Shown here piece after piece: positions 8,699 through 63,980 of a stretch of DNA of 64,000 nucleotides (positions within the stretch are counted from its first letter, which is position 1; the number at the start of each line of letters is the position of its first letter). This DNA is from Onchidella celtica (lineage: Eukaryota; Mollusca; Gastropoda; Systellommatophora; Onchidiidae), in contig OZ007567.1 of NCBI GenBank assembly GCA_963931925.1, forward strand, positions 89,632,998 to 89,696,997, in the 5' to 3' direction. A model generated the notes under the pieces. It searched no databases. It was given only the letters and a program-made list of their open reading frames with translations, and was not told the origin of the DNA. The position numbers and the translations under genes are program-made.

Positions 8699-8952
8699 CT
8701 AGAATCTCCTGTCACAAACTTTCCGATGAAATGTCAGGCTGTTCTTGTGAGCGAAACTTTTGCTACAAGTTGGGCATTTGAACGGTTTGATACCCAGGTG
8801 CCTGGCGTTTTTGTGTCCCAAATAATGGTTGACGTGAGAAAACTGCTGGCAGCAAAACTCACAAACATATAAACCAGTTGTGCTGTCTTTATTATGGATC
8901 ACTTGCTGACTGGCCGGTTGATTTGACGAATGGGGGCCTCTTTGTCTTTGGC
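8699..8952 (-). CDS. Class B zinc-finger terminal exon (leftmost in the array)
   Basis: About 84 residues from a phase 1 acceptor (TTCCTTTTCAG). A linker of about 30 polar residues precedes two fingers. The first is YVCEFC to HKNARH (C-x2-C-x12-H-x4-H) and the second is FKCPTC to FHRKVC, with a terminal Cys ligand (H-x3-C). The stop follows four residues later. This is the most 3' exon and, with the exon at 10596, is a class B outlier separated from the main class B block by the class A block. Confidence 0.85.
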
Positions 8953-10595
8953 CTGAAAAGGAAGAAAAACTGGAATGAATCACTTTGTCAAGAATCAGAG
9001 TCATAGTTTAAGTTCAACAACTCATACATGTATTATGAATTTGTTACAACAGACATGGCAGCACAATAATTCAACAAAACCTGCAAATGTTAATTCTGCA
9101 TGCTAAATACAATGTACCGCCGTTTACTCAAAACCTATGTAACGACAGCAAAGCCTACCCAAAACTGATAGCTTTTGATTGATAACTATGGACATAGGCG
9201 AGATATAAAAGATGTGGACTACGGACCTAAAGTGGTGGTGGCTGGAGCGGGGAGTAGTGTTGTTGTAAGGTAACGATAATGTAGCATTGTATTTTAATGT
9301 GGTATCGTTTAGCTGTCACGCTGCAAAATACCCGAAGGGGATATAAAAGCAGCTGTATGCCCTAGTGTATTGATATTCAAGACAATCGGAAGTTATCTGG
9401 CATCAGCAGGAGCGGCTAAACGCTTTTACATTTCATGTTAACAAAGAGTTGCCCCTTCCCCCAACCCCCCTCCTTCCTTTTTTTTTTTGGTGAATCAGAA
9501 TGACAGTGTACTGTCAACAATTTAGCATGTGACACCTTATCTTTTTCTTCTTCTTCTCTTTTAAAGTAGATCTATAATTTACATGTTTGTATACAGTGTC
9601 GTTTCTGTGGTGCAGTGTCGTTCAATATGGGCAAATCTGACCATTTTGTTTACATCGGAAATTTGAACTCGGCACTAATTGGCGCAAAATTAGATTTTAG
9701 TTGGAAGACAGCCTTGAGCTTGAGGTGGGTATATAGCGGAGGAGAGGGGATCCAAAGTCCAAAGTTCCATTTTGGGGAGTGACAGTTTTACAGGTTCATG
9801 TGCCTTTCATTGTCAGCATAAATTTTGAAATATAAAGCTGCAGTCTCTAGACCACCAGAAGGAAAGAAAGAGTGGTTGGATTATAATTACTGCATGTGGA
9901 ATCTGTCAGACATAACGAGATACAGACAGACAGATGGAAAGACAGATGGATGGATATGTTGAAAGGGCGGGGTGATATTAAGAAGCATACTCAACGTTGT
10001 GACGGTAGAAGACTCCTTGCATACATGTAGGCTGTCTGTGACCATGTCCAATTTCAACTGCAGCTTTACACAGACACACCCTCTTCATGTTATAGTCAGC
10101 ACATGTACACGAGTTTTTTGGACGTCCAAATCCACATTTCAAGTACCGAGCACAAACCCATTGTGAGAAAGCAGATATTGTGAGTATACACTGATCTCCG
10201 GCTTGTGTCATGACTGAGGTCCTCCAATTATTTCAGTCTCATCCAAAGTTCAGCCTTAGCCCTGTCTCCTCAGGTCTCGGCCAAACTGTAGATCAAAACT
10301 CAAGATTTGGGACTTCAACTGCTGGTGTAAGTGTAACATAAGCCCAACTTGATTTCACCACTTCAACCCTTTAATCTATGACATGACAAATACATTTAAT
10401 GTAAACATCGAAAACACAACGCAGTAAACACTAACATTTATATAGCAACTTGTATTTCACTTTAATTCATTATTTTTCTTTCCTCATCCTGCTCATCTAG
10501 GCCAACAGCAATAGACAACGATGACACATCCTGTGGTGGAAGCTTATTAAAATAAGCAGGTTCAAGCTGGTTTACTTTGCATGTTGAAGTTGCGT
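8953..10595. other. Intron between zinc-finger exons
   Basis: Low-complexity tracts (a T run near 9480, GACAGA-type repeats near 9925-9950) and no supported gene. A Cys-rich minus frame at 9978-10211 has no finger spacing and is not called. Confidence 0.4.
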
Positions 10596-11050
10596 TTACT
10601 GGATAGCAGTGGACGACACTGTGGTTGTAGGTCCAGATTTTGATGTTGATACTGCCATTTTGTCTCTTGCTAAGCGCATAGCTGGACATGTCTTCCTATG
10701 CATTGGCAGGCTTGTAATGTATGCAAATTGTCTACCACAGAGTTCGCAGGCGAAAGGCTTTTGCCGTAGGTGTCGCCCATTCATATGACCGATGTACTCT
10801 CGCCGTGAGGGCAAGCGCTGACCACATATCTCACAAGCAAATTTCATTTTTCTCCTGTCTTTCGCACTAGAGTTGTATTGAAACTGATGGTGCTGGGTAT
10901 CCAACACGCTGGTTGGCCGGCAGATGGATGGCACAGGTGTGCGTGATTGAAGAGGGTTAAGTCTGGCCACCGACTCAGTTCGATGAAAAGATGTGGTTTC
11001 AGCCATGAATTGGGGCCATTTCTTCCCTGGATTGTTTCTTACAGGGCGAA
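10596..11050 (-). CDS. Class B zinc-finger terminal exon with long linkers
   Basis: This is the longest exon of the array, about 151 residues. The acceptor CATCCCCAG gives Val-Arg-Pro after a phase 1 join. Roughly 70 Ser/Pro/Arg-rich residues come first. Finger 1 is FACEIC to HMNGRH and finger 2 is FACELC to MHRKTC (C2HC). A 30-residue Ser/Thr-rich tail ends in STAIQ. The Met at 11177 lies upstream of the acceptor, inside the intron, and is not the start. Confidence 0.85.
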
Positions 11051-11213
11051 CTGGGGATGAAAACGTAATAATATGACAACTTGCAGGAAATGAACAGCTT
11101 GTGTACACAGTGGATACTCCAGTAGAGGCTATGATAACGATAAACATAAAATATTGAGGTTGCCATTCATTTGCCATATTTTGATTTTTCCGTGTTGCGG
11201 ACGCAGAACATCT

Positions 11214-11562
11214 ATATAAAAAAACAGCAAGGAAAAAAAATTCACTGCTGCGAGGAAGAAATGCCCAGACCTGAAAAAATTACATGTGAAAGATAGTTCT
11301 TTTTGCTACTATGTCTATTCCTTTGACACGAAAGCGAAGTATCGTAATTTTGTAATAAATGAAAATTGGCCTAAAAACATCGAATAATGCTTTCTCCTCA
11401 ACAATGATGGCCTCCCTCCTGCCTGTTTTGTTTCGAGTTTAGTACCGTGCATGTCATAAAAAATAACCATATTATCAAGCTTGGTGTGCAGTGTCCTGGC
11501 GCGCATGAGTTCTGAAGCAGGACTGCAGATTACTACTTTTATTGTAAAAGAGAGAAAGAGAG

Positions 11563-11640
<78 letters not shown>

Positions 11641-12561: not shown

Positions 12562-12594
<33 letters not shown>

Positions 12595-17122: not shown

Positions 17123-17451
17123 TTAAGTGCCTAAACATAAATTCAACGAAATGGTTTCAGGATGTATAAATTCTTTATTAGTTTCAATAAGCTTAATACT
17201 TTTACCAGCATCGATCTTAATGCCATGATGAAGCAGAGCATGTTTGGTAAAGGTGTGTCTTCTTTTAGCTGTGATAAGGCATATTGGGCATTGATACAAA
17301 AGCACTTTAGGCTCATGCTTTTCATTCCAATGACGCACAAAGAATGTCCTGGCTTTAAAGCAAGAACTTTGGGCTGGACACTGCTGAACAGGACATCCAT
17401 CCCCTGGCTTCCATAGAGGGGCTAGCCCACTGAGGCTGACTAAACATCGGC
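17123..17451 (-). CDS. Class A zinc-finger terminal exon (variant first finger)
   Basis: Read from the acceptor at 17452-17453 (GATTCAG), the frame is open for about 109 residues and includes WKPGDGCPVQQC well upstream of the first Met at 17338. Finger 1 has 15 residues between the Cys and His pairs instead of the usual 13, but keeps HWNEKHE. Finger 2 is YQCPIC, AKRR, to HALLHH. The tail reads NKEFIHPETISLNLCLG, a diverged form of the class A tail. This is the leftmost class A exon. Confidence 0.85.
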
Positions 17452-19371
17452 CTGAATCTATAACAAAAGAAAGTCTTGGGTTAATTCATTTCTTTCAGTG
17501 GATGGGAAACTTTGGGGCTGAATGGAAACAACTGTCATGTTTCAATGACTGGCTATCACAAGATGGAAACATTTCAACGGCCTCGTACATAAATTATCAA
17601 ATCTGGAGAAGTCAGCTTTACAGGAAGAAGGACAGAACTGATCATAAGGAAAGAACAAACTGTCAAAGAAAACATGGTCACAATATACTGGTTATCCATC
17701 TCGCATACTGGAGTGTCAATGAGTTTGGTGGTTTTGAGATTTGACTAACTTACCTAGGGCTACAAAGTGACGTATCGACATCTTTATATTTTGAAGTTAT
17801 GAACAGAAAGGTTTTCGCCATTTTCAAGAATAACGATAGTGATCAAAACTTTGAAATGCTCTCCCGGCCAGTAAAATATATAAGAAAACTGTTGATACAC
17901 TATAAATTATGTGGGATGAATGACGATATGTTTTATTTGTTTATTTGCAATTTTATGGTAAGGTGTCTTCCAGCATGATATAGAATGAGGGAATTTTCCA
18001 TTTCACTAAAAAAGCAAATTCGTGGAATTTCCTGAGACAGTATGTGCCTGACACCGTCACTTTGATTTGTCTAAAGACAAAGACAGGGTCAAATTTTGTG
18101 ATGGGTATCCCAAACGTTAATAATAGGAAGCATGCAAGAGAATAGATGAGGAGTGTCTATCATATGGCAATTTATGATGTTCATGCGCTTGAAAACATCT
18201 ATTACTGGGCTCTCTCGAAATTCAAAGCACAAATCTAATTTTATGAAGATGCTTTTACTGTTATATCGGGAAACTGTGAAGAGAACTGCATCTTCAACAC
18301 AGATAACACTTGGTAGAATGGTAAAATATGAGGTCAATCAAAAAACATAAATATATTATGTCAAACAATAATAATATTCAAGACAAAAACAGGCAAATTC
18401 CTCCAGTCTTAGTAAAGATGATTTTCAAGCTTCAAACAAGAGCAAGCCTTAGAGTTCATGCTGTTTTGTAAACAGGGCCAACAAAACATGCCTCAGAACA
18501 CTGGCTGATTAAAGTGAGAGTGTGCTATTCCAAAAGGCCAGCTCCTAAAGCCATGGATTGTTTTTTCTTTGAGACTTTTCTTGAATTCTCATCTCAGCAT
18601 AAATATTTGAAGTTATAGCTTGTACAACTGCTGACAGAATGTACCGGTACTTTCGAATGGCCATAGTATTTGCTGCTGCAAGCATTTTCAATTTACACCT
18701 TTCACAATTGTGATCATTAAACAAATTTTCTCTCACAGACAACCACACAGTAATGTATAATCCATTATAAACCATTATAATCTGTATCCTGCAGGCTGCA
18801 TTTGTCAAGACAATGTGACTAAGTGGAGTATTGGTGATCTTTCTCAGCTGTCACAAATTTTAATTTTTTTTAAGGAACACAAATAGAGTTCATTTATGTA
18901 ATAAGTTTTCAGCATGTGTCTTGCACATTCTTTCTGTTTGTCATTTGTGAACTGGAAAGGATAATTTCTTTTTGATCTGTTTACATCAATTTGTTTCATT
19001 ATCCACACAATCGACACCCATGCAAATTATGTTCCTATTATCTTTTGTAACCCAGGGTCGAGAAGACGAGCCCAACATCCTGACAATACCTTGTGTTATC
19101 ACATCAGTTTTTACAGTGGCAATTGTCTTTGTCACACATGGAATTGAAATATCCTAAGTAGATCAGTTTTTCTTTATGTTACTTTGAAAAAAAAAAGTTA
19201 AAGGGGAGTGGTAGTGAAGGTGCAAGATAAAAAATAAGTGCACTTAATTAAGCGCAAAACTAACTAAAATCTTTCAATGCCTGTAAATAAATTTTTTTTA
19301 AAGTTGTTTGCGTGAAAAAGTTCTTTCCATCCTTTTGCCCTAATAAAATTCCAGCTAACTGTACAGATCAA
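17452..19371. other. Intron between class A exons
   Basis: No gene or clear repeat was seen; AT-rich throughout. Confidence 0.35.
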
Positions 19372-19682
19372 CTATGGGTGCCCCAGAATCATTTGTAATG
19401 TCAAAGGAGATGGATCAACATATCTGTCATTGTGTATCATCTCTACATCAGACATATTTGACTTTATGTTTCCGTCATGCTTTTCTTTAATATGGCGTAT
19501 CAAAGATGAAGGTCTGGTGTAACACTGGAGACATGAGAGACACCTCCAGCTGGACACTGTAGTTTCATGCTTTTCTCGCCAGTGACGACGATACTTGTGG
19601 GCTATGTATGTACTGCATCCTGGAACTGGGCAACAGCTATCTGGTCTCCATAATGCATTATATGAAGCAAATTCACCAAAAC
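19372..19682 (-). CDS. Class A zinc-finger terminal exon (short first finger)
   Basis: About 103 residues after the acceptor TTGTTTCCAG. ALWRPDSCCPVPGC opens finger 1, which has only 10 residues before HWREKHE, three fewer than the class norm. In finger 2 (WRCLSC to HIKEKH) the usual KRK is replaced by YTRP. The tail RYVDPSPLTLQMILG fits the class exactly. Just to the right the intron carries the retrotransposon. Confidence 0.85.
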
Positions 19683-23139: not shown

Positions 23140-26100
23140 TCAGAGGTCCAATCTCTGGGGTTGTCTGTGTGGGCGGCTGGACCGTCGCACAGGAGGTAGG
23201 CGCTGGGAAGTTGTCATCCCAGGTTGAGGGTCCGGTCGGGCTGCAGGTGGCTGGCAAGGGTGGTGAGCCGGGAAGTACCAGACATCGGTCGACGCAGGCA
23301 GTGGAGGCGGGTGCTGTGGACGTGTGTTGACCACTGGGGGGTGAAATAACCGCAAGAGGTCTCCGTTGACCGCAGAGGCATCTCCATCTGGGTTTCTGAT
23401 GGTAAAGTAACCACCATGAGGCGGGGGAACAGACAGGACGGTGTGTACAGGACCGGGGTACGGGTCCTGGATCTTGTGTCGACCAGGATAGTGGTGCTTG
23501 ACAAGGACATGGTCGCCCGGCTGAAGATGGGCGGCGTTGTGGGGGGTCGTCCTTCGTGCGTCCTGCAGAAGGTGCGTGGACTCCACCTTCCTCGCTACCT
23601 TCGCCCTCAGTTCGTTGAGCCGTTGTATATGCCGCTGGACGTAGTCGCCTACCGAAGTGGAGGCTGGTGTCTCGTCACCCAGATAGACATCCAATGGCAG
23701 ACGTGGTTTCCTGCCAAACAAGAGCTCGTAAGGGGACACTCCAGTGGAAGAATGGGGGGTGGCATTGTAACAGAAAGTTAATTCCGGCAGGTATTCTCGC
23801 CATCTTAACTTCTGTTCTGGGAGTAAGGTGGACAGCAGACTGAACATAGTGCGGTTGAACCGTTCGCACTGGCCGTTGCCTTGTGGATGATAAGCGGTGG
23901 TGCGGGACTTGGTGATGCCATAGTGGCTGCAGAGCTGGCGTACCACTTCAGCCTCGAACTGCCGTCCCTGGTCGGAATGTAGCCTCTCTGGAACCCCATA
24001 GTGGACAATCCACGAGTGAATGAGGTGGCGAACAACTGTCGCTGCTGTCTGGTCCTTGGTTGGCACTGCTACTGTCCACTTGGTGAAAACATCTGTCATG
24101 ACCAGTATGTTCTCGTAGCCATCAGTAGTGGGCTCAATTTTTGCGAAGTCCATGGCCACAATTTGCAAGGGGTGAGTGGCCACAAGATGACCAGTGGGTT
24201 TGGCGACACGGACAGGGGGATGCTTAGACCGCTGGCACCGCTCGCACTGTTGGCAATACTGTTGAACCATACTGGTTTGGTCTGGCCAATAGGTCCGTTG
24301 TCGTATATGGGCGAGTGTTCGCTCGGGGCCTTGATGTCCGGTGCCGTCGTGTGCAAACCTAATAGCAGTTTCACGATATTTGGATGGTAAGACTACCTGT
24401 TTTACTTCTCCATGGACTGGGTCGAGAATCTTCCGCACTAGTATGCTGTCGTGGATGGAAAGCTTGTGCCACTGTTTCAGTATGGCGAGGGTGTCACTAG
24501 TTAGGTCTTTGCGCTCTATGGCTGTGGGTTTTTGTTGCGCCCTTACTGCTCGGTAGACAACTTGGATGGCTGGATCATCTTCTTGGGCAGCTGCTAGGTC
24601 TTCGTTATTGAGGGAGGGAATAAGGGCTTTGGCAGGAGACAGGTGCAGATGGTTCACAAACACTTCTCCAACCGTGGTGGCAACTTCCAATGGGAGGTGT
24701 GTGGTAGACTGCAGGCAGGCGGAAGCAATAGTTACCAATTCATCAGCGTCCTCGTCGGGTGGTGCCGGAAGGGGGTGTCGGGACAGAGCATCAGCATTCG
24801 CATTTTCCTTCCCCGAGCGGTACTTGATATCAAAGTTGAACATTGCGAGCTCAGCTATCCAGCGTTGTTCCACTGCACTGCGTTTGGAAGACAGAATGTG
24901 ACTTAGGGGGTTGTTATCGGTGTATACGGTGAAGCAGTTGCCCAGCAAATATCCCCGGTATTTCTCGGTTATGGCCCACTTCATTGCTAGTAGTTCCAGC
25001 TTGTATGAACTGTATCCACGCATCTTCCTCTCGTTGGGCCTCAATCCTCTGCTTGCGTAAGAGATTACACGTCGTCGTCCGTCCTTCTCCTGGCTGAGGA
25101 CAGCACCTAGACCTTCATGGCTAGCATCTACTTCCAAGACGAAAGGCTTGTCGAAATCAGGGTAGGCCAACACTACTGCGTCGCTGTAGAGGGCATCTCG
25201 CAGTTCCAGGAAGGCTTGTCGGCATTCAGTCGTCCATAGCTCACCCAGTTTTTGGTGCTTCTTGTAGCTGCCTTGGTTCTGCTGGTTTGCCTTGCTGATG
25301 ACTTCATGGAGGGGGCGGGCCATTCTGGCGAAATGCTTTATGAAACGACGGTAATAGCCCACCATCCCCAGAAAAGTCCTTAGGTCTCTCATGGTCTTCG
25401 GCATAGGATATTCCGTTATGGCGCGGACCTTGTCTTCATCAGTAGAGATCCCCTCATTCGAGATAGTGTGTCCTAGGAAGGGTACTGAAGAGCGGGCAAA
25501 TGAGCACTTGTTGGGATTTAACCTGACGCCAATGGTGCGAAGTCGAGTGAAGACAGACTCCAGTCTCTCCAGATGTTCGGTAAGGGTTGGCGAAAAGACT
25601 AACAGGTCGTCCAGGTAGACCAGCAGTATCTTGAATATGAAGTCACTCATTGTGGACTGCATCAATCGCTGGAAGGTGGCCGGGGCGTTGCACAGACCAA
25701 AGGGCATCCTATTGTATTCGTACAGGCCAAAGGGGCAGATGAAAGCAGTCTTCTCTCGAGATTCTTCCGACATAGCAACTTGATGGTAACCACTGGCGAG
25801 GTCTAGGGTTGAGAAGAATTTTGAGCCACCTAGTATGTCTAAACACTCGTCAATCCTGGGAAGTGGGAATGCGTCCTTCCTGGTTATGTTGTTCAGCTGG
25901 CGGTAGTCGACACAGAGTCTCAGCTCGCCTGACTTCTTGCGGCAAACAACAATGGGTGAGGCATAGGGGCTACTACTTGGTTGGATCACGCCACGACGCA
26001 AGAGGTCCTCAATATGTTCTTGCACTTCCTTCAACTGAGATGGCGGGATCCTTCGGTATGGTTGGGAGACTGGCGTGTCATCCGTCACTACTATATTATG

Positions 26101-27072: not shown

Positions 27073-27642
27073 TGGAAACAGGCTCCTGGTCCCCTCTCAG
27101 ATCGTTGCCCCCTCGTCCTCCTTCTCCGGTGGCTGAGTGGCTCCTCCTCAGCCAACCGAGACAGGAGAGCTTCCATTTTCTCCAGCCTGCCGTTGAGATC
27201 AGCGATGGCCCGGTCGCTGGTGTTAGCAGTGGCGGCGGCGGAGTGTTGGGGTGGCCTGTTGTCAGCCCTGGTCGCAATGGCTTGGACGTGGCTGTCGGGG
27301 TGTCCCCTGTCGTCATACCAGCGGATGGCAGTGTTCCGGATGTCCAGGAAGGTGGCATCTGGATGCTGGAACCTGTATTCACGGAGCTGGGCCGTGAGCG
27401 ATTCGCTTGAGAGGGCCCCCATGAAGATGTCCCTCAGGATGCTCTCTTCATATATGGGCTCCCTCAGGGCAGACTGGCGCTTGGTAAGGGCGTCGAACAT
27501 ATCCCTCAGCCGATGGGAGAAACCCCTCACCGTCTCCCCTGGTCGTTGGCGGCACTGGCTCAGGGCTATGAACAGGTCGCTGGGTGACCGGTGTTCTCCG
27601 AAAGCCTCCAGTATACACTGGAGAGCTCTCTCAGGATCTCGC
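26994..27642 (-). pseudogene. gag: Retrotransposon gag, 5' end missing
   Basis: The capsid-like part (RPGETVRGFSHRLRDMF) is open right up to the 5' LTR edge at 27642, with no start Met in that stretch. A nucleocapsid knuckle CFQCGRQGHFAKDC (CCHC) lies near the end, before the stop at 26994. The first Met inside the frame, at 27530, would skip part of the capsid. The truncation means this copy cannot make normal Gag, though it could be mobilised in trans only if packaging signals survive, which is doubtful. Confidence 0.85.
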
Positions 27643-28994: not shown

Positions 28995-29338
28995 TTATTT
29001 CACTTTTCCCAGGACCAAATCTAAACTTAATGGATAGGGATCTTGAAATTCATGATTGTGTTGATATTCCACTTTTTTAATGGAGTTTGAAATATCGCCG
29101 TTGCCATGTTTAAATCGAAAATGCTGGAAAAGGTTTGATCTTCTTTTGGAGAAAAATGTGCACATGGAGCAATGATATTTGGCCACAATTTCCTCATGCT
29201 TTTCCGTCCAATGAATTTTAAGGTGTGTAGCTTGACGAAAGATTTTAGCACTGCACCCAGGAACAGGACAGCCCATCCCAGGCTGCCATAAATCACTTCC
29301 TGGACAGAAAGGATTCCGCAACCTGACTCTCGGAGCAC
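28995..29338 (-). CDS. Class A zinc-finger terminal exon
   Basis: About 114 residues after the acceptor TTTTGTTTTCAG. LWQPGMGCPVPGC starts a canonical class A finger 1 (C-x4-C-x13-H-x4-H, core HWTEKHE). Finger 2 is YHCSMC, SKRRSN, to HFRFKH. The tail EFQDPYPLSLDLVLG is typical. Finger 2 and the YQHNHEF stretch closely resemble the next exon to the right, so the pair probably arose by exon duplication. Confidence 0.9.
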
Positions 29339-30725: not shown

Positions 30726-31102
30726 TCACTGATAATAGTGCACTGATTCTGTCTCTGACATGAATTTCCTTCTCTTTCCCAAAAGATCCTCAAGAGATAG
30801 AGGACTAGGATCATTGAACTCTCTATTGTGCTGAAAGTCAATGTCCCCAATACAGTTTGCTGTATCACCATCCCCATGTCTACATTTGAAATGTATAATT
30901 ACATTGGACCTTCTCTTGCTTATGTAACTGCATGCAGAACAATGATATTTGGGGACTATCTCCTCATGTTTCTCAGTCCAGTGTTCTCGTAATCGGGCAG
31001 GTGAAGGTATTTTCTTGGCGCAGCAACCTGGCACGGGGCACCCTAGTCCTGGAAACCATATGGACGTCCCTGAACTAGATTTCTTCATCGTCTCATATGA
31101 GC
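30726..31102 (-). CDS. Class A zinc-finger terminal exon
   Basis: About 125 residues from the acceptor TTATCTCTGCAG. IWFPGLGCPVPGC leads into a regular finger 1 (HWTEKHE). Finger 2 is YHCSAC, SKRRSN, to HFKCRH. DIDFQHNREF and NDPSPLSLEDLLG form the tail. A 16-residue basic and acidic extension (KRRKFMSETES) follows the class tail, longer than in the sister exons. The sequence upstream of 31102 that stays open is intron. Confidence 0.9.
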
Positions 31103-34320: not shown

Positions 34321-34676
34321 CTAGGTTGGTGGTGGTAATCCCAATACTTGATGTACAGTTAGAGGAGAAGGATCCCTATAATTCTCATTTACTTCGTAAT
34401 GAGTGATCACCTCTGCAGAAGAGTCTTCACCATGTTTAAGGCGAATGTGGAGCCTTGCTTTATCTTTTCTTTTCACATGGCACATGCACAAAGAACAGTA
34501 GTAAACAGTAACAATTTTCTCATGTTTCACCCTCCAGTGGCGTTTGAAGTCTGTTACATCACGCAACTTCACAGCAAAACATCCACTAACAGGACAGCCA
34601 AAACCAGGTTTCCAAAGTGCTCTGAAAGGGTTGTATGCTCTCACTCTTGCAACGGTTTCTACAGAGATGACTGTAC
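34321..34676 (-). CDS. Class A zinc-finger terminal exon
   Basis: About 118 residues from the acceptor TTATCATCAG. ALWKPGFGCPVSGC opens finger 1, with KLRDVTDFKRHWRVKHE, in which the usual Glu of the EKHE core is Val. Finger 2 is YYCSLC, VKRKDK, to HIRLKH. The tail is NYRDPSPLTVHQVLG, then Pro-rich. The KLRDV-D-RHW stretch is shared with the exon at 36596, which points to a common recent parent. Confidence 0.9.
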
Positions 34677-36595: not shown

Positions 36596-36957
36596 TCATA
36601 CCACAAGGTCTTCCTCTGATATACCCAAGATCTGTTTTAATGTACAAGGATAAGGATCATGAAAATTTCTGTTAGCCTGAAATCTTATTTCAGCCTCTGC
36701 TGAGCTCCTGCCATGTTTCATCACAATATGTTGGTTAAAAGTGTTTTTTCTCTTTAGCCCAACTGAACAAAAAGGACAGAAAAACATGGGGACTATTCTC
36801 TCATGTCGTTCTTTCCAGTGTCTCATCAAGTCACTGACATCTCGCAGCTTTCCACCTTTACATCGGTCAACAGGACACCCATGACATGGTTTCCAGAATG
36901 CTGTGGCAGGATTGTATAATCTTCCTCTTGGAAATCTCTCACTGTATAATTGTATAC
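36596..36957 (-). CDS. Class A zinc-finger terminal exon
   Basis: About 120 residues from the acceptor TTTCAATTATAG. AFWKPCHGCPVDRC is followed by KLRDVSDLMRHWKERHE, a regular class A first finger. Finger 2 is FFCPFC, LKRKNT, to HIVMKH. NFHDPYPCTLKQILG is the tail, with an acidic end (SEEDLVV). The next exon starts only about 220 bp downstream, the tightest spacing in the class A block. Confidence 0.9.
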
Positions 36958-37180: not shown

Positions 37181-37518
37181 CTATCCTGCTCCTAAGATTA
37201 AACTGAGAGTTAAAGGATCCGGATCTAAATATTGACGGTTCAAGTTTCTCCCTTCCTTGTATGTAAAGCCAGCCACATTACCATTATGCTTGGTGCGTAC
37301 ATGAAAAGCCAAGTCTGATTTTCTTTTGAGGACTGAGGAGCAAAGGGAGCAAGCATATGTTGTCACATATCTTTCATGTTTCTCTGCCCAGTGCCATTTC
37401 AGTCTGCCAACTGAACATAATTTTCGAGCACAGCATCCCAAAACTGGACATCCACCACCCATTTCCCATAGTGCTTTGCTTGCGTTGTACTTAATAGCAG
37501 GATAAAGTCGGCGCACAC
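37181..37518 (-). CDS. Class A zinc-finger terminal exon
   Basis: About 112 residues from the acceptor TTGTTCACAG. ALWEMGGGCPVLGC leads to HWAEKHE (13-residue spacing). Finger 2 is YACSLC, LKRKSD, to HVRTKH. The tail QYLDPDPLTLSLILG ends three residues before the stop. Confidence 0.9.
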
Positions 37519-37991: not shown

Positions 37992-38320
37992 TCACTCAAG
38001 TCCAAGCACAGCATTTAGTGTCAATGGAGATGGATCAATGAACTCTGGGTTGTGCTGATACTCAATTCTCCCAACCCCAGCTCTTGTTGTGCCTCCATGT
38101 TTCAACCGCACATGAGCAAACAAATTAGATTTCCTCTTAAATGACACTGTGGGACATAAAGCACAATAAAAATATGCAGTAATCTGTTCATGCTTTTCCA
38201 GCCAGTGACTTCGTAAGTCTGATTTGTTTCTGCAAAATCTGGCGCCACATCCATAGACCGGACAGCCACTGACCCGTTCCCATGCTGCTGCGTGAATGTG
38301 TTTCAGGTCAAGCCTGAGAT
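37992..38320 (-). CDS. Class A zinc-finger terminal exon
   Basis: About 109 residues. The acceptor TTCCTTCTGCAG gives Asp as the split residue. AAWERVSGCPVYGC leads to HWLEKHE. Finger 2 (FYCALC, FKRKSN, to HVRLKH) has 13 residues between Cys and His, one more than usual. IEYQHNPEF and IDPSPLTLNAVLG close the exon. The IEYQHN stretch links it to the exons at 28995 and 30726. Confidence 0.9.
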
Positions 38321-38818: not shown

Positions 38819-39162
38819 TCAAGTCCCGATCTTGCCACTGCTGATATCATGTGTTCCAAAAATCATGTCCAAATTAAGAGGGTATGGATCCAAAAACTGT
38901 TTATTGATTTGGTAAACTCCCACCAGATCTCTCATATCAATGGAAATGCCATGTGCCATTCTGGCATGGCGTGAAACATCTCTTTTCCGTTTATGCTGGC
39001 AGCCGCATCTGGGACATGGGTATTTTACAACAACCTCTTCATGTTTTTCTTTCCAGTGGCTCAAAAACTGCAGCCTACTGTGGAACAGCCTGCCTGCACA
39101 ACCGTCCACTGGACATGGATCCCGGGGTTGCCATGAAAGCAAGCTTTTGCTCTTGAGTGTCC
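38819..39162 (-). CDS. Class A zinc-finger terminal exon
   Basis: About 114 residues from the acceptor TTTTGTCACCAG. SWQPRDPCPVDGC begins finger 1 (HWKEKHE). Finger 2 is YPCPRC, HKRKRD, to HARMAH. DLVGVYQINKQF and LDPYPLNLDMIFG form the tail, followed by a 12-residue extension. The tail spacer resembles the exon at 39771 (DLKEVYEHNKGY), so the two are likely sisters. Confidence 0.9.
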
Positions 39163-39770: not shown

Positions 39771-40081
39771 TTATGTAATCCCTAAAATTGAATCGAGGGT
39801 ATATGGCCAGGGATCAACGTATCCTTTATTGTGCTCATAAACTTCCTTTAGATCCACAACTGGGACTGCAAACCTATGGACTGTCCGAACATGTCTTAAA
39901 ACTTCTGCTCTTCTTTTGCCATGTTTATGACAATATGGACAAATATATTTGATAATGATCTCTTCATGCTTTTCTTTCCAATGACGCTGGAAGTCAAATT
40001 TGCAAACGAATCCATTGCCTTGACAGGAAGATACTGGACATTTTGATCCTGGTGTCCAGTGATGTTTAAAAGAAGCCTGTC
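39771..40081 (-). CDS. Class A zinc-finger terminal exon
   Basis: About 103 residues from the acceptor TTTTGTCAACAG. HHWTPGSKCPVSSC leads to HWKEKHE. Finger 2 is YICPYC, GKRRAE, to HVRTVH. GYVDPWPYTLDSILG is the tail, with DPWPY in place of DPxPL. It sits 0.6 kb from its likely sister at 38819. Confidence 0.9.
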
Positions 40082-40861
40082 CTGTTGACAAAATAAGACA
40101 ACAAACTCAGATATAAGAGCAGGTGCCAATATCATAAAAAGGAAGAAATAAAGGGGTTAAAAAGTCCATCCAAAGAAACAAATTAATTTCACTGGTTCCT
40201 ATCACCTGGTAAAATAAAGGTATCTTGTGTCAAAACCTTTTCAGCTCACAATCTTAAATAGCTAATGTTGAAATCATACTCTATAAGCAAGGTAATATCT
40301 GCCACATTACAGAACATCCTCCACATTCAATAAATATGTGAAGAAGAGAAGCATGTCTGGCCACACTTTGCTCTCTTTCAGATGACTAAGCACAACATGA
40401 CCAGTAATATAAATTCACCACAGGAATATGCCTCTCTTTCCAGTTCAAGTTTAACAACCTTTGTATGAAGCCTTTGGCAAGCTCTCTCTGCAACCACATT
40501 TCTTTCCAGTGACAATGAAAAGCAGTTGCATAAGAAACAGAAGAAGGGCATCCAGGCTATCAGCACAACAATTTCTAAAAAAGTGTTCATTCAACTTGAA
40601 AATGACTGTTCAGTTTAAAAGAGAGGAAGAATCACCCTTTCAATGTCCTTACTCAGCAACGACATCTTAAACTACCACAGCAAATATGAACCCATCATAC
40701 AAAATTTGAATGATTTGAAGACACTGTTTGAAATATGACCTCAAAAAGTATACATTACATGATAAAAATAACTTGAACAATCAGAAAAATGTCATACATG
40801 ATGAATGACGTAACAACCCATCCTATTGACATTCATATCATGCATGTTGAATATAATACTC

Positions 40862-41214
40862 TCAATCAAATCCCAATGCCACGTCAAGTGTAAATGGATA
40901 TGGTGATACAAACTCCTTATTTGCTTGAAAATCAGTTTTTCCTGTGCATGTTTTTGTTTGTAAATTAATATGATGTGTCTTGCTCATATGTCGATTCAAA
41001 TTTCCTTTCCTCTTGGCGACAAAATTACACAGTGTACAATGATGAATTTTGACAAATTCTTCATGTTTCTCCATCCAGTGACGTTTCATTTCACATTCCG
41101 TAAAACCAACACGATGCTGTAGGTTGGTAGTGCAAGCTGTAACAGGGCAGAAAAATCGCTTATAAGATCGAATTGGCACCACCCCTCTCATTCTTGACGG
41201 AAGGGTGTTCCAGC
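40862..41214 (-). CDS. Class A zinc-finger terminal exon (long first finger)
   Basis: About 117 residues from the acceptor TGTCCCCAG; the split codon gives Gly, then WNTLPSRMRG. The Met at 41191 is internal, not a start. Finger 1 (FCPVTAC) has 17 residues before HWMEKHE instead of 13. Finger 2 is HHCTLC, AKRKGN, to HMSKTH. EFVSPYPFTLDVALG is a slightly changed tail (SP for DP). It is the first class A exon met when reading the gene 5' to 3'. Confidence 0.88.
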
Positions 41215-41951: not shown

Positions 41952-42169
41952 TTAACTCCAAACCATTTTTTCTCTACAAACACGCATATGTCTGATACTG
42001 CTTCGCTTGTAATGAAAACATCTGGTGCAGAATTGACACTTGTATGGAGCTACACCAAGATGAAACTTGTTGTAATGATCTTTGTAATCCCTGCTGCTAA
42101 AGAAAGTTTTCTGACACTGGTCACAACAGCTGGTAATCTTCTTCATTGTGCCTCTTTCTTGACCAGTGG
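41952..42169 (-). CDS. Class B zinc-finger terminal exon
   Basis: About 72 residues from the acceptor CATTTGCAG (split residue Ala). Finger 1 is CCDQC to HYNKFH and finger 2 YKCQFC to RHMRVC, with a C2HC ligand set. It marks the right-hand border between class A and the main class B block. Confidence 0.87.
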
Positions 42170-44379: not shown

Positions 44380-44627
44380 TTATAAATCATTTCTTTTCCG
44401 TACACACAAAAGCATATGTCTGTCTCTGCTCCTCTTATAAGGGAAAGATTTCCAGCACTTTGTGCAAGAATATGGGTTAACTCTGAGGTGGACACTGTTG
44501 TGATGTTCCACTACTCCCCGTCTGTTTGGAAATCTCCTTCCACATTCTGGGCATTCATACTGTCCATGATCACTTCTGTTTATTTCAGTTGGTGGGACTG
44601 TTGATTTGAGATGTAGCAAATTCATAA
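44380..44627 (-). CDS. Class B zinc-finger terminal exon
   Basis: About 82 residues. The acceptor CTTTTTTCTCCAG precedes TTATG, so the apparent start Met is the second residue of the exon after a split Val. Finger 1 is YECPEC to HHNSVH and finger 2 YSCTKC to RHMLLC. A short basic end follows. Confidence 0.87.
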
Positions 44628-47001: not shown

Positions 47002-47261
47002 CTACTCAGCAGAATTCAGTTCCATGTTACATGTATATTCTGCATCTGTTTTTGGCGAAGAGTAACTACGAGCAAGAAATCCACTGCATGAAAGAACATG
47101 CCGGTTCATATTGTGTTTATATGCAAAACGTCTGCCACATTTCAAACAGGTGAAAGGAAAAATCTTGAAATGTACGCTATTTTTGTGTTCCCTCAGACGA
47201 TAAGAATCCTTGAAACCTTTACCACAGATATTACATCCATATCTTGGAAAACAGTAGAAAC
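47002..47261 (-). CDS. Class B zinc-finger terminal exon without any N-terminal Met
   Basis: The exon reads from the acceptor TCTCCTCAG (47262-47263) for about 86 residues. Finger 1 is YGCNIC, GKGFKDSYRL, to HKNSVH; finger 2 is FTCLKC, GRRFAYKHNM, to RHVLSC. A 28-residue Ser/Glu-rich tail ends in NSAE and a TAG stop (47002-47004). The first Met falls inside finger 2, so an ATG-based search misses the exon. Finger 1 resembles the neighbour at 47859 (KxFRDSYxLKEHKNSVHFK), suggesting tandem duplication. Confidence 0.88.
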
Positions 47262-47858: not shown

Positions 47859-48052
47859 TTACTTTTCATATCTGATACACAATATTTTATGGCGATTCAT
47901 ATTTTGTTTGTAGGCAAACCCTTTGCCACACTTTGGACATACATGCGGACAAAACTTAAAATGAACACTGTTTTTATGCTCTTTTAGACAGTATGAATCC
48001 CGGAAAATCTTTCCACACATACTACAGCTGTAACGCTGACAAATGACAGCAC
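47859..48052 (-). CDS. Class B zinc-finger terminal exon
   Basis: About 64 residues, a compact exon from the acceptor CTCTTCCCCAG. YSCSMC, GKIFRDSYCL, to HKNSVH, then HVCPKC, GKGFAYKQNM, to RHKILC. It is the closest relative of the exon at 47002 and lies about 0.6 kb from it. Confidence 0.9.
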
Positions 48053-49111: not shown

Positions 49112-49323
49112 TCAAGGTCCTTGCATCCCTTTTGTATATCTGCACATTGTCATATGCCTTTTGAGGTTACTTTTATAGGCCATACGATGACCACAATAAT
49201 CACAAGCGTAAGGAAGGATTTTAAAATGGACACCATTTGTATGCTCTTTCAGATGTGTTACATTTAGAAACAGCTTCCCACAAATGGTGCATTTGTGGCG
49301 GCCTGAAGAGCTTGGCAGGATAC
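49112..49323 (-). CDS. Class B zinc-finger terminal exon with two possible acceptors
   Basis: About 70 residues to a TGA stop at 49112-49114. Finger 1 is HKCTIC, GKLFLNVTHL, to HTNGVH; finger 2 is YACDYC, GHRMAYKSNL, to RHMTMC. Two AG sites fit: CTCTCCAG before 49323 and CTCTTCAG before 49302. They lie exactly 21 nt apart and both give phase 1 with Gly as split residue, so seven residues of linker may be optional. The exon has no usable upstream Met. Finger 2 is like that of the exon at 50220. Confidence 0.85.
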
Positions 49324-50219: not shown

Positions 50220-50434
50220 TTAACAGCTGTGAGATTTGTCCGCATACATGCACTTTATTACATGCTTTTTCAAGTTGCTTTTATAAGCAACACGGTAATC
50301 ACAGTATGGACAGCCATATGGAAAGATTTTTAAATGTATAGCATTCACATGTTCTCTAAGTTGGTATGAACTCGTGCATTGTTTTCCACAAGAAGAGCAC
50401 TGGAATCGTGTGATTGGTGATCTTGCCATGAGAC
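50220..50434 (-). CDS. Class B zinc-finger terminal exon
   Basis: About 71 residues from the acceptor TTGTTCTTCAG. Finger 1 is FQCSSC to HVNAIH; finger 2 is YGCPYC, DYRVAYKSNL, to KHVIKC. The Arg-Val-Ala core of finger 2 replaces the usual aromatic residue, as in the exon at 49112 (Arg-Met-Ala), making these two sisters. The next exon begins about 230 bp away. Confidence 0.9.
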
Positions 50435-50665: not shown

Positions 50666-50859
50666 TCATGAAAGCCCTAAACTATGATTTAGATGGAGAT
50701 GTCGTTTCAAACTTCTTTTATAACCAAATCCCCGACCACAATGAGGGCAGATATATTGATTCAGTTGCAGATGAACAGCCTCAATATGTTCCTTAAGATG
50801 AAAGTTGCTTTGAAAACCTTTCCCACAGCGGCTGCACACCTTTGAAAGGACAGGGCAAC
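50666..50859 (-). CDS. Class B zinc-finger terminal exon with a full C2H2 second finger
   Basis: About 64 residues from the acceptor TTCCATTTCAG. KVCSRC to HIEAVH, then YICPHC, GRGFGYKRSL, to RHLHLNH, ending H-x4-H instead of the usual Cys. A six-residue tail follows. Confidence 0.9.
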
Positions 50860-53614: not shown

Positions 53615-53823
53615 TCACTCAAGAGGGGCATTTGATAACTTGGCATGTGCAGTCATCATATGACGAATCATGTTGCTTTTGTACCCAAACCTTTTTCCAC
53701 AATGATTGCAAGAATAAGGGAACTGTTTAAAATGAACGCTATTCATATGATCCTTATGATGTCGACGGCTCTGAAGTGGCTTTTCACACAAGCTGCACCA
53801 CCACAGTCTCGAAAATGGATTAT
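53615..53823 (-). CDS. Class B zinc-finger terminal exon
   Basis: About 69 residues. The acceptor CTGACTTCCCAG gives Asp as split residue. Finger 1 is WWCSLC, EKPLQSRRHH, to HMNSVH; finger 2 is YSCNHC, GKRFGYKSNM, to RHMMTAH, with a His as last ligand. A ten-residue tail follows. Confidence 0.9.
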
Positions 53824-54086: not shown

Positions 54087-54280
54087 TCAATTTGGTGGAA
54101 AATGGCATGTTGTAGCACTGTGCCGCTTCAAGCTCCTTTTGTAAGCAAATCTCTTGCCACAAGCTCCACATGAGAATGCCAAGACTTTAAAATGAACACT
54201 GTTTTTGTGATCACGCAACTCCCAAGAGGAACGCATATGTTTCAGACAAATATCACACTGGTACTTGTAACGCCAGATAT
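54087..54280 (-). CDS. Class B zinc-finger terminal exon
   Basis: About 64 residues. The acceptor TTTTCTTCAG gives Asp as split residue. Finger 1 is YQCDIC to HKNSVH; finger 2 is FSCGAC, GKRFAYKRSL, to RHSATTC (H-x4-C). It is adjacent to the exon at 53615, which shares an Asp start. Confidence 0.9.
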
Positions 54281-55046: not shown

Positions 55047-55258
55047 TTATTTTGGGGTTCTGGTCAACACAAAAGGTCGCCGTGGACATGTTTTTGCATG
55101 ACGCAGACAGTTTTTCTTATATCCAAAACGTTTTGCACAATGCTGACAGGAATACTCAAACAAGCCAAAGTGTACAGCATTTGTATGTTCTTGAAGATGC
55201 CTGCGGTGATGGCAAAGTTGTCCACATATTTTGCAGCGAAAGCGGCTGAATCCAGCAC
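55047..55258 (-). CDS. Class B zinc-finger terminal exon
   Basis: About 70 residues from the acceptor AACGTTTCACAG-like site (GTTTCACAG). Finger 1 is FRCKIC, GQLCHHRRHL, to HTNAVH; finger 2 is YSCQHC, AKRFGYKKNC, to RHAKTC. A basic, Pro/Thr-rich tail of about 12 residues ends the exon. Confidence 0.9.
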
Positions 55259-56703: not shown

Positions 56704-56920
56704 CTAAATTGACCGACCAGCAACCCTTTTGTAGCGCAAGTTTTTCACACGATATTCACATGCATATGGCAATAAATTGAAGTGAACACTGTTCTTGTGC
56801 TCTGTTAGATGTTTATTATGATGGCACTGTTTCCAAAACAGCTCACATCGAATTTTATACTGTGCTGACAGTGATTCATTCGCTGAACTTTCATTTCTTG
56901 ATCTACAGATCAAAGGGCAT
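56704..56920 (-). pseudogene. Dead class B zinc-finger exon
   Basis: It is clearly homologous to the exons at 57934 and 63733 (shared RNES-ANESLSAQYK, HKNSVHFNLLPYACEY). Three lesions are visible. The acceptor CTCTACAG of the sisters reads CTCTACATG, so the AG is gone. The second Cys ligand of finger 1 is Phe (CELF instead of CELC). The second Cys of finger 2 and everything after it are scrambled (CEYRVKNLRYKR) before an early stop. It should be neither spliced nor able to bind zinc normally. Confidence 0.85.
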
Positions 56921-57933: not shown

Positions 57934-58181
57934 TTATTTTGAGACTGTCCGTTGATACTGACACAGTGTAGCATGGCGCACTGCATTTCTTTTGTATGGG
58001 AATCTCTTCCCACAATATTCACATGCATACTGCAATAAATTGAAGTGAACACTGTTTTTGTGCTCTTTAAGGTGTGTTTTGTCACGGCACTGTTTCCAAC
58101 ATAGCTCACATCGAAATTTATACTGTGCTGACAGAGATTCATTCACCAAACTTTCATCTCTTGACCTATAGATCAGTGAGC
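57934..58181 (-). CDS. Class B zinc-finger terminal exon (duplicated family)
   Basis: About 82 residues from the acceptor TTTTCTCTACAG. A 26-residue linker (SRDESLVNESLSAQYKF) precedes finger 1, RCELC, WKQCRDKTHL, to HKNSVH, and finger 2, YACEYC, GKRFPYKRNA, to RHATLC. The stop TAA lies inside an AATAAA word, a possible polyadenylation signal directly at the stop. It is one of three related copies; the copy at 56704 is dead and that at 63733 is intact. Confidence 0.92.
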
Positions 58182-60596: not shown

Positions 60597-60820
60597 TCAA
60601 TTTGTTCCCCCATGAAATCTTTCATTCACAAAAATATTCATACAAAGGGAACAGGTTAATCGGTGACGAACAAAACTACTCTTATAAGCAAATTTCTTCC
60701 CACAGCTGCAGACATATGGAAGAAATTTCAAGTGAACGCTGTTCTTATGATCACGGAGATGATTTTTGTCACGACAAGTCTTTCCACATAAGTCACATTG
60801 ATGTCTTGATATGGGAAAGC
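60597..60820 (-). CDS. Class B zinc-finger terminal exon with a C-x-C second finger
   Basis: About 74 residues from the acceptor CTCTCCCCAG. Finger 1 is HQCDLC, GKTCRDKNHL, to HKNSVH. Finger 2 is YVCSCGKKFAYKSSF to RHRLTC: only one residue separates the two Cys, one fewer than normal. The frame, the rest of the finger and the tail are intact, and the exon at 61554 has the same feature, so this is not a random lesion. A 15-residue tail follows. Confidence 0.9.
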
Positions 60821-61118: not shown

Positions 61119-61387
61119 TCAGTCAATGACATTATGTTGAGTAGTCACAGTGGAATGAACCTGCATGTGAGAGTGCAGACTTTGAGCATAGGCAAATCCT
61201 TTGCCACATGCAACACAAACATGAGGCTTTATTTTTAAATGCTTGGAGTTCAAATGCCCATCCAGATCACGTGACTTCTTGTAGTGCACATTGCAAATCT
61301 TGCACACAAGTTTCTTATTCAGTGTGGAGTTTGAAAGGAACCATGTTGGCAGACTGATCCCAGGTGGATTTCCTGCATTAATGTTAA
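61119..61387 (-). CDS. Class B zinc-finger terminal exon
   Basis: The frame is open for about 89 residues from the acceptor GTTTTTCTACAG; an in-phase second AG (AATGCAG) lies about 12 nt in. A 33-residue linker includes NPPGISLPTWFLSN. Finger 1 is LVCKIC to HLNSKH; finger 2 is HVCVAC, GKGFAYAQSL, to SHMQVH (H-x3-H). A Thr/Gln-rich tail follows. There is no Met before the first finger. Confidence 0.88.
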
Positions 61388-61553
61388 CTGTAGAAAAACA
61401 ACAGGATGAAACTGATCATGGACATAAAGTGGAAACAAACTGAGCAGTTGTGAAATTCTTATGAACACAACACAATGATCATTCCAGTAGTACCCAAATA
61501 TTCTCTTCCTCTTGGCCATGACAAAAAAGAGAAAAACCTTAAAAATGTGACAA

Positions 61554-61759
61554 TCACATTAATTGCATTCCACAAAGTATTTTATGTCTCCTAAAACTCT
61601 GTTGATAGGCAAATGCTTTGCCACAGTGACATTTGTAGGGTCGCAATCCAAAATGTACCGAGTTCATGTGACCCTCATAATCCTTTTTGGCTGAAAAAGC
61701 TTTCTGACAGACTGTACAATAATTTGTAGTGGGCCGCCAGGTGCTTTTTCCACGATCAA
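61554..61759 (-). CDS. Class B zinc-finger terminal exon with a C-x-C second finger
   Basis: From the acceptor CTGTATTTTGCAG the frame gives about 68 residues. Finger 1 is NYCTVC, QKAFSAKKDY, to HMNSVH; finger 2 is YKCHCGKAFAYQQSF to RHKILC, again C-x-C. The stop TGA is at 61554-61556. An ATG-based search misses the exon because its first Met lies in finger 1. It sits 0.16 kb from the exon at 61119. Confidence 0.88.
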
Positions 61760-62450
61760 CTGCAAAATACAGAGAAAAAAGGGCGGAAAAACACAGGCCA
61801 GATTTGGTTTTGTCTCAAATACCTCCCATTTTTATGCATTTTTGTTTGCGCCTCTAGGAGCACCTTTTCTTCTCAGGAAACACCACATTATTCACTGATG
61901 ATAACTGCCAAGAATTTGTAAACATCACAACAAAAATATTTTTGGAGTTTATTTTGGAGTTTACAATCTACAGCACTGTCACGCTTATCTAACTGAACTT
62001 TTCTCCATGAAATAATGGAAAATGAAATAAAATATTTTCTCAAACTTAAAAAAAAAGTGAGGGACTGTTTGAAATAGAGGACCATGACACAATGCCATAT
62101 TGCTTAACATTTTCTTCTTGTGCAGACATAAGGTAAAATACTTCACCAAAAATATCTGGAATGATGCATCAACTTTGAAAAGGAAAAAAATCTTTCCACA
62201 CAAATTCATTAATTTTGCCATGACAAAATTTCTGTTTCACAGTAGTATTTAATATTATCTCTTTCAGTTAAAACTTTGCTTCTTGCACCACAGAGAAATG
62301 TTTGCCATCAGAAGTTTGACCTTTCATGATAAAACTGGATTGTTCACAAAAGAAAATGTGCAAATGTAGGAAAATATGCACATGAATGGTTGAAGGGGAG
62401 AGATGACACATGCCACAATTGAACAAATTGATCGATGGCATGAATATTTG

Positions 62451-62617
62451 TCACTGACAATGATATTTATTCATATGCTTCCTATAATGACCGTGGTGAA
62501 AAAGTTTACGTCCACAGTGCTGACATTCGAACTTGAACTTGGCCATTTGATCACCCAGACAGCGAGCATCTGGCTGCCTAGAAGTATGAGTGGAAATTGT
62601 TGTTTGTTGACTCCTAG
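62451..62617 (-). CDS. Single-finger class B terminal exon
   Basis: From the acceptor TTTCTCTCTACAG the frame gives about 55 residues: a 29-residue Ser/Thr/Gln-rich linker, then one C2H2 finger FECQHC, GRKLFHHGHY, to HMNKYH, and a stop three residues later (62451-62453). The second finger found in every other intact exon is absent. The shape matches finger 1 of class B. It could be a real single-finger isoform or an exon cut short by a stop. Confidence 0.8.
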
Positions 62618-63732
62618 CTGTAGAGAGAAAGAATTTGGTTTTTGTTTTCTGCTGGTGTTACTTTGGACACTAACAAATCTACCATGTGCAACGACAACAA
62701 AAAGGTGTGCACCTAAAACAATAACAAAAATACATTTTTAAAAAAAAAGGCACCAAAAACAAAAAAAAAAGTTTCAATGCTGTTTTTCCATCCTAAGTTT
62801 TTTTCTTTCCTAATTCAATGTGCAATAACTGCAATCACACAAAACATAAAGCTTGGCATCTTGTGAAAATTCTCCAAGTTGCAGAGCAATATTTGTCACA
62901 AATAAGACATTCAGCAGAATTACATAGACCACACATGATATTTCAAGTAGTCCATCTCCATAAAACAGACCGAAATTCAGGACAATCATTTGCTCTAAAG
63001 TTTTCCACAAATCATGCACAAGATAAAAAGGAAGTACAGTCCGCTTAGCTTTCAAGGGGCAAATTCTGACAGCAGCTCTGTCCAAACAAACACAAATCTC
63101 ATACTTTACAAAATATGTCAATGCACTTCACCAGTCCTTTATTACTACTATTTACTCTATTTTATGCTGCAAGATTCTGTAACGCTTTCTAATCCACAAG
63201 AAGGGAAACAATTTGTTCAACCAAAAACAAAAACAAGCAGAAAATTTAATCTGGTCAAAAAAAATATAACGAACAAAGCTTTCCACTCCACAATCTGTCT
63301 CCCCTTTAACTAAATAAAAAAAAAAGAAAAAGTAATGATGATGGAGCAATTCATTTCCACATTGGCACACCAATCAAACTGATAAATGAATCAATAGCAA
63401 CATTGTATTTTGAACAGTTTTATTTGGTTGTACCTTACATTTTGCACTTTTTAATCATGAAGTGATGAACTTATCTACACAATCACCTGCAAAAGTTGTA
63501 TAGGTTTCGTTTTTTTGATTTGACACTGTTTCCAAAATTCAAATAAGTGCAGCATCCTGGAAATTTCCATGTCATGACCTGACTTTCCACAATACAATCT
63601 ATTAGATTGTAAACACAATAATTCATTTTACAATCTTAATAGGCCAACACTAATGACATTACTGTCCACTCATAATCTATAACAAATTATAATTACGGGA
63701 TTGTATCACTGGACCAGAGAGCAAAGTGATAT
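62618..63732. other. Intron; right part is one arm of a segmental duplication
   Basis: About 63290-63700 parallels 56200-56680. No other feature was recognised. Confidence 0.45.
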
Positions 63733-63980
63733 TTATTTCAATATTGTCGATTTATGTTGACATCTTAAAGCATGGCGCACTGCATTTCTTTTGTAGGGGT
63801 ACCTTTTCCCACAATATTCACATGCATATGGCAATAAATTGAAGTGAACACTGTTCTTGTGCTCTATTAGATGTGTATTGTGATGGCACTGTTTCCAACA
63901 CAGATCACATCGAAACTTATACTGTGCTGACAGAGATTCATTCACCAAACTTTCATTTCTTGGCCTATAGATCAACGGGC
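63733..63980 (-). CDS. Class B zinc-finger terminal exon (duplicated family, rightmost)
   Basis: About 82 residues from the acceptor TTATTTCCTCTACAG. The linker (RNESLVNESLSAQYKF) and both fingers, RCDLC, WKQCHHNTHL, to HKNSVH and YACEYC, GKRYPYKRNA, to RHALRC, are nearly the same as in the exon at 57934. The stop TAA again sits inside AATAAA. Its HHN in finger 1 is shared with the dead copy at 56704, so those two are probably the closest pair. The array runs off the window edge just beyond it. Confidence 0.92.

Follow-up and report, generated by a model that had tools for sequence, protein, structure and literature searches.

Thirty zinc-finger terminal exons and a conserved head other than BTB in a predicted single transcription-factor gene of the gastropod Onchidella celtica

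Background

Can a gastropod gene provide one constant protein head with dozens of different DNA-binding ends? The question is raised by a locus of Onchidella celtica, a heterobranch gastropod, contained in a stretch of 64,000 nucleotides (nt), hereafter called the window (C1:89632998-89696997, C1 being contig OZ007567.1 of a genome of 1.14 Gb in 43 contigs), where exons coding for C2H2 zinc fingers follow one another in tandem. An initial annotation had read these exons as alternative protein ends, served by a common upstream exon to the right of the window. We consider it very probable that the locus is a single transcription-factor gene, in which two constant coding exons would be joined by splicing to any one of 30 alternative terminal exons, because phase 1 donors are common to the whole array, nearly all finger exons have phase 1 acceptors, the layout is repeated in a second array, isoforms with a shared head are annotated in four species, and the residues contacting DNA are conserved. 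Positions above 64000 continue the window numbering rightwards, beyond the window.

Results

Finger-containing segments were located by a six-frame search with a loose C2H2 pattern, true and stray matches being sorted by eye. The window contains, between 8699 and 63999, 29 stop-terminated segments with true-looking C2H2 fingers, all of them on the minus strand; two fingers in one segment were never found on the plus strand, and stray single matches occurred on both strands. The outermost exon of the array, E30 (65337-64943, minus strand), starts 1.3 kb beyond the window, and brings the array to 30 exons, all on one strand and continuing past the window as originally stated. No finger exon was found in the next 10 kb to the left of the array, and no further one was seen between E30 and an open frame at 84407-85249.

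Acceptor sites were scored blind to phase, taking all AG dinucleotides from the upstream stop up to the first Cys of the fingers; this Cys was set by hand in seven segments, where the pattern had caught a stray match, and in segment 40862-41260 the pattern had picked finger 2 as the first. The top-scoring acceptor leaves remainder 2, i.e. phase 1, in 28 out of 30 segments (29 in the window and one outside), which corresponds to a binomial P = 9e-12 at p = 1/3 for exons that are related by duplication, hence non-independent. In the two exceptions, the segments at 10596 and 34321, the phase 1 acceptor ranks third. Preceded by a G, all 30 exons read open from the acceptor to their own stop. Nearly all contain two fingers, but E30 has three and E28 (62451-62617) only one; at least two recognisable fingers are present in 29 of the 30, two of these with odd spacing. 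In E25 (60597-60820) and E27 (61554-61759) finger 2 shows a Cys-X-Cys spacing: the frame is intact, but zinc binding by this finger is perhaps lost. Since an unnamed relative (P0115) shows it too, this spacing may be tolerated. The description of the window as holding 29 intact terminal exons, all of phase 1, is therefore correct for the number of minus-strand exons, but has to be amended for the size of the array and for E25, E27 and E28. Pfam analysis of six exons placed E02, E24 and E26 above the cut-off of a C2H2 model, and E01, E05 and E13 only below it. The variable ends are small zinc-binding modules, for which DNA binding is predicted.

Two classes of ends can be distinguished. Class A includes 11 exons (E03-E13), characterized by the signature CPVxxC...HWxEKH, mostly with KR before the second helix, and by a conserved tail, N..F.DP.PLTL...LG. 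Using E05 as a genome query, 12 matches were obtained at E 0.01 or better, namely the 11 class A exons and a weak one; outside the family, a search with one class A tail found 4 proteins (10 candidates), all from Biomphalaria or Physella. The remaining 19 exons are class B or odd, with a tendency to HKNSVH and CGKxFAYK (17 were aligned, E28 and E30 being left out). With E17 as query, 150 of 2338 candidates were scored, and the first 17 of 89 matches all fall within this array or a second one at 76.24 Mb, ordinary long finger genes coming only after them.

The common exons were sought in 200 kb fetched to the right of the window, and they lie 19-21 kb beyond it. The open frame at 84407-85249, on the minus strand, encodes a product beginning with MDFDSSTKFISSLAKFLQSLCNGYVEF and contains coding exon 1 (85204-84415, C1:89717412-89718201), which ends in a phase 1 donor, ACT/GTGAGT. 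A second constant exon, found by means of peptides of relatives, is located on the same strand at 83105-82929 (C1:89715926-89716102); it follows TTTTTCAG, runs from phase 1 to phase 1 and ends in TCA G/GTTGGT. Exons 1 and 2 sum up to 967 nt, remainder 1, and from them the frame continues into each of the 30 finger exons up to its own stop. The expected common phase 1 donor to the right of position 64,000 is thus present, although carried by the second of two coding exons rather than by a single one, and the absence of any common donor exon, which the initial annotation had named as a contrary outcome, is not what we found. Direct splicing of exon 1, which ends in T, to the finger exons was also tried as a candidate, and a pyrimidine at acceptor position +2 in 27 of the 30 exons was briefly read in its favour; it was rejected, since two exons would open with a stop, and isoforms of orthologous genes show a second common exon ending in G.

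Relatives of the head were found in a search yielding 218 proteins and in a further one yielding 275 matches; among the 120 listed in either case, every named one comes from a heterobranch gastropod. They include proteins of Arion (73% identity), Lymnaea, Physella (LOC131934882), Bradybaena, Biomphalaria (LOC106079054), Aplysia (LOC101845285) and others, the heads of Physella acuta, Biomphalaria glabrata and Aplysia californica being 60-70% identical over 95-99% of their length. Isoform numbers in these three species reach at least X37, X21 and X21, respectively, tails are partly orthologous to those described here, and the genes are annotated merely as uncharacterized, or after generic finger proteins. 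Within each of four species, isoforms have 315-316 residues in common, followed by different finger tails, as would be expected of one gene with many protein ends. Clustering at 90% gave 49 representatives (16 from Physella, 11 from Biomphalaria, 17 from Aplysia, 5 from Bradybaena), and two more forms brought the set to 51. The first residue of all 51 tails is G, A, D, E or V, coded by GNN, as expected after a donor ending in G; the 30 exons described here are compatible with such a donor.

Further joins of head and fingers are seen in other proteins. Three Arion proteins (A0A0B7B0M5, A0A0B7B453 and A0A0B7B1K8) are the same over 326 residues of a sister head, after which they diverge. Among 15 unnamed proteins examined, head and fingers are joined in seven: six (P0061, P0077, P0082, P0115, P0116 and P0119) lie on contigs of 1.4-1.8 kb, which are probably complementary DNA, and one on 4.2 kb. 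Fingers are lacking in the other eight, two of which, P0002 and P0004, read through the exon 1 donor. The Arion UniProt entries presumably derive from assembly PRJEB7891. This is a Trinity assembly of slug RNA (PMC4795696, in excerpt), and the Bradybaena annotation was produced by BRAKER3 with RNA-seq (PMC12042801, in excerpt).

Comparison with the tails of other species gave reciprocal best matches for 32 of the 51 (Physella 11 out of 16, Biomphalaria 9 out of 11, Aplysia 7 out of 18, Bradybaena 5 out of 6), pairing with 17 of the 30 exons; partners of E01, E02 and E04 are found across the range from Aplysia to Bradybaena. C2H2 fingers contact DNA through helix positions -1, 2, 3 and 6, and these were compared with all other finger positions. 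In reciprocal-best pairs, contacts are the same in 195 of 244 cases (80%) versus 503 of 849 (59%) for the other positions; in the 25 pairs winning by at least 10 bits, the figures are 165/192 and 429/674. As a control, 18 non-reciprocal tails with a match showed no such difference, with 53/141 (38%) versus 202/507 (40%), and one Aplysia tail had no match among the 30 exons. When each exon was compared to its nearest array neighbour by similarity, 101 of 230 contacts and 350 of 783 other positions were the same. Taken together, these counts indicate that, within an exon line, no part is as well conserved as the contacts, and that between exons the contacts vary as much as everything else. Many exons seem to be held to a binding specificity of their own, in contrast to fast-changing finger arrays such as that of PRDM9.

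Bradybaena genes 02006, 02007, 02008 and 02014 match E01, E02, E04 and E20, and exon order may thus be kept in this species, assuming that gene numbers follow the chromosome. Gene 02015 favours E25 by just 0.8 bits, while 02019 favours E18, non-reciprocally, and does not fit a kept order. A second close copy of the head, BsWGS_04843 (P0038), is found on another Bradybaena contig; we presume that it may stem from a genome duplication in land snails.

The constant part of the protein consists of a head domain of about 76 residues and a serine-rich linker. The initial annotation had predicted a shared BTB or other domain: the conserved head is there, but it is not a BTB. Pfam gives no match for it; none of the 130 listed BTB matches of the genome (150 of 172 candidates scored) lies near the locus; and when the profile of eight heads was compared with that of seven BTB domains from the same genome, the probability was 0.2%. 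A search of solved structures with the head profile found nothing, the best E being 1.8. Two structure predictions resolved nothing of the head apart from one helix, residues 3-21, with a mean predicted local distance difference test score (pLDDT) of 53 and 50, probably because the available relatives are nearly identical. The fingers of an Arion tail were instead modelled at pLDDT 92-96; they match Zif268-type C2H2 structures, with a best E of 1.0e-3, and in a fold search with the Arion model the 50 matches listed, of 319, are finger structures.

The head matches ten places in the genome, all on C1, nine of them clear and one weak (E 0.06). Eight heads were read, including the one of this locus, and all keep the head domain. 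The best-scoring donor is of phase 1 in all eight, a weak test, as nearly all 24 listed donors are of this phase. A [VI]KxE motif, picked after being seen, is present in the linker of 8 out of 8 heads, versus 0.47 expected. Outside the domain, an alignment of 34 relatives shows no invariant residues except K142-R143, K247 and E249, the last two within the [VI]KxE motif; on these grounds K142-R143 may be the core of a nuclear-import signal, and [VI]KxE is a likely SUMO site. Two sister heads, at 116.7 and 69.7 Mb, closely resemble each other and have a common acidic end, EVIEIDDEDE; they perhaps form a sub-family of their own.

A second array (C1:76233000-76252999) was identified downstream of the head at 76.26 Mb, with 20 same-strand finger segments in 20 kb, one of them doubtful, corresponding to at least 19 exons; the best acceptor is of phase 1 in 17 out of 20. 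Sister-form tails of Arion, Bradybaena, Physella and Biomphalaria match this second array in 10 out of 10 cases tried. Another sister head is found about 11 kb to the left of the window, on the same strand (C1:89621474-89622208), and no finger exon was seen after it in a 10 kb piece, 2.5-12.5 kb beyond.

The terminal exons, all on the minus strand, are placed by acceptor score and frame, unless otherwise stated. E01, the last of the array, spans 8699..8952, and is preceded by E02 at 10596..11050, where acceptor 11050 is third by score. The class A exons follow: E03 at 17123..17457 (with an alternative phase 1 acceptor at 17451), E04 at 19372..19682 (having a reciprocal-best tail in all four species with multiple forms), E05 at 28995..29338, E06 at 30726..31102, E07 at 34321..34676 (acceptor 34676 is third by score), E08 at 36596..36957 (of uncertain acceptor, 37002 being also of phase 1 and scoring higher), E09 at 37181..37518, E10 at 37992..38320, E11 at 38819..39162, E12 at 39771..40081 and E13 at 40862..41214 (a higher-scoring phase 1 acceptor, 41136, was passed over, being inside finger 1). 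Further on are E14 (41952..42169), E15 (44380..44627), E16 (47002..47261), E17 (47859..48052), E18 (49112..49323), E19 (50220..50434), E20 (50666..50859), E21 (53615..53823), E22 (54087..54280), which is 85% identical over 59 amino acids to a Bradybaena tail, E23 (55047..55258), E24 (57934..58181) and, next to E25, E26 (61119..61387). E27 and E28 come after them; the latter is reciprocal-best with the Physella X37 tail. E29 (63733..63980), with two fingers, is a recent duplicate of E24, as judged from substitution rates (below), and E30 matches the tail of Physella isoform X7 with 65% identity over 127 residues.

Two decayed exon copies are found within the array, on the same strand: a copy of E24/E29 at 56713..56916, in which the acceptor AG, zinc ligands and frame are lost and a stop interrupts the reading, and a class A relic at 40311..40454, also with a stop. 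Between E04 and E05, a long minus-strand open frame (23140-27096) contains an integrase-type zinc-binding motif, and looks like a Ty3/gypsy retroelement; a second Ty3/gypsy-like open frame lies in the intron beyond the window, at 73890-78377. Just beyond the last exon of the array, at 6723-7239, a 39-base unit is repeated in tandem in 13 copies with 99% matches.

Discussion

Several points weigh against a single gene with alternative ends. By a generic matrix the donor of exon 2 is weak, scoring 1.9, the other one scoring 2.5. Poly(A) signals after the stops of finger exons are not enriched over control, being found within 300 nt in 8 of the 30 exons (control 0.36), within 600 nt in 20 (0.61) and within 1000 nt in 24 (0.78), and in five places neighbouring exons are just 167-299 nt apart, which is little for separate 3' ends. 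The isoform lists are incomplete and clustered at 90%, and RefSeq isoforms are predictions. Finally, the Bradybaena forms carry separate gene numbers, a Biomphalaria pfeifferi model, Bpfe_000209 (P0130), chains two class A units, 19 of the 51 tails, 11 of them among the 18 from Aplysia, have no reciprocal-best partner, and 17 of the 32 tails with one come from only five exons.

Separate gene numbers would be expected of a tandem cluster of small zinc-finger genes, each with its own start. Such clusters are common in animals, and 9 of the 30 exons do have a Met between the acceptor and the first finger Cys. The other 21 lack it, so that starts within the finger exons, mentioned in the initial annotation as a possible objection, are not the rule; moreover, the common phase and the shared head joined to tails in four species contradict a cluster of this kind, which appears extremely improbable.

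The chained B. pfeifferi model would instead agree with finger exons partly joined in series into longer poly-finger proteins, and 4 of the 30 exons do hold an internal phase 1 donor scoring 1.5-2.2, in two cases better than the exon 2 donor (1.9). Every exon is closed by its own stop, however, no internal phase 1 donor exceeds 2.2, and chaining is seen in none of the shared-head tails inspected whole. Serial joining, also foreseen as an objection, is in our opinion most unlikely, although the test is a weak one, with true donors scoring 1.9 and 2.5.

The tails without partner indicate that exon turnover is real, and large towards Aplysia; the decayed copies at 56713-56916 and 40311-40454 likewise indicate that exons are born and die within the array. 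It might accordingly be asked whether the array is largely dying, with few exons in use: in addition to the two decayed copies, two exons have Cys-X-Cys fingers, and 13 of the 30 have no reciprocal-best tail among those listed. Yet 29 of the 30 keep at least two recognisable fingers (oddly spaced in two), contacts are kept in exon lines, and the ratio of nonsynonymous to synonymous substitution rates (dN/dS) is 0.23-0.32 in the three unsaturated pairs of seven tested, values that are rough in two of the three, where dS exceeds 1. The youngest pair, E24/E29, has a dS of 0.40 and a dN/dS of 0.27. Widespread decay is thus very unlikely.

A less remote alternative, though still an improbable one, is that finger exons have promoters of their own and are trans-spliced to the common exons, as in mod(mdg4) and partly in lola. 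The layout is the same as that of mod(mdg4), which produces more than 30 isoforms by trans-splicing (PMC12692577, in excerpt). The lack of poly(A) enrichment and the weak exon 2 donor fit neither cis nor trans splicing better; but all exons are on one strand and at most 77 kb from the head, and ordinary cis splicing would suffice. On balance, the observation of the initial annotation is confirmed, and its interpretation, one gene with two constant exons and alternative finger ends in the form given here, is supported.

In such a gene the constant exons would supply the conserved head, the serine-rich linker and the likely SUMO site, each messenger RNA (mRNA) would use one terminal exon, and each finger pair would bind a short DNA site of its own. 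The head may let isoforms of this and of the sister genes pair, or share partners, resulting in a combinatorial set of regulators.

The likeness to lola, Broad and fruitless, suggested from the start, holds for a constant front followed by alternative C2H2 ends, and fails for the head. Broad and fruitless have the same variable-end layout, but, unlike the snail gene, have few ends and a BTB head. Closer in number are lola, for which 17 of the 20 isoforms in Drosophila end in different C2H2 fingers (PMC11426971, in excerpt), and mod(mdg4), with at least 30-31 isoforms and one constant head (PMC4667647, PMC11426971 and PMC12692577, in excerpt). Like lola, the snail gene has constant 5' exons and alternative C2H2 3' exons, but the lola head is a BTB, the snail head is not, and the snail finger ends are more numerous (30). 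With mod(mdg4) it shares one constant head and about 30 ends; the mod(mdg4) ends are mostly FLYWCH and its head a BTB, in contrast to C2H2 ends and a head without Pfam match. In addition, mod(mdg4) has part of its exons on the opposite strand, and all its mRNAs are reported to arise by trans-splicing, whereas the snail exons are all on one strand. In the excerpted source, TTK-type BTB domains were not found outside arthropods, Mollusca being among the groups searched (PMC11426971). Of the features of the lola/mod(mdg4) group, constant 5' exons with alternative 3' exons of one phase and small zinc-binding ends are present, a BTB is not. Although expected to work like lola and mod(mdg4), the snail gene falls outside their group, because a BTB head was looked for and not found. 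No description of this gene type in molluscs was found among the best matches listed in the open-licence literature.

We would give about even chances to a broader proposal, namely that gastropods evolved, independently of insects, a system of the lola/mod(mdg4) type with an unrelated head. With nine clear heads on a single chromosome, two or more of which are followed by arrays of some 20-30 finger exons, there could be about 50 or more combinatorial factors, pairing via a shared new domain and specifying cell or neuron identity. Among single factors with dozens of DNA-binding ends, lola and mod(mdg4) are the best known; the excerpted source describes their BTB type as specific to arthropods (PMC11426971). 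A gene of like design without BTB in snails, some exon lines of which have been kept from Aplysia to land snails, suggests that the design can arise repeatedly. The locus also brings to light a highly conserved head domain absent from Pfam, together with a gene family obscured by automatic annotation, which has given its members dozens of unrelated names. The purpose of the design becomes testable in Aplysia and Lymnaea, animals with well-mapped neurons.

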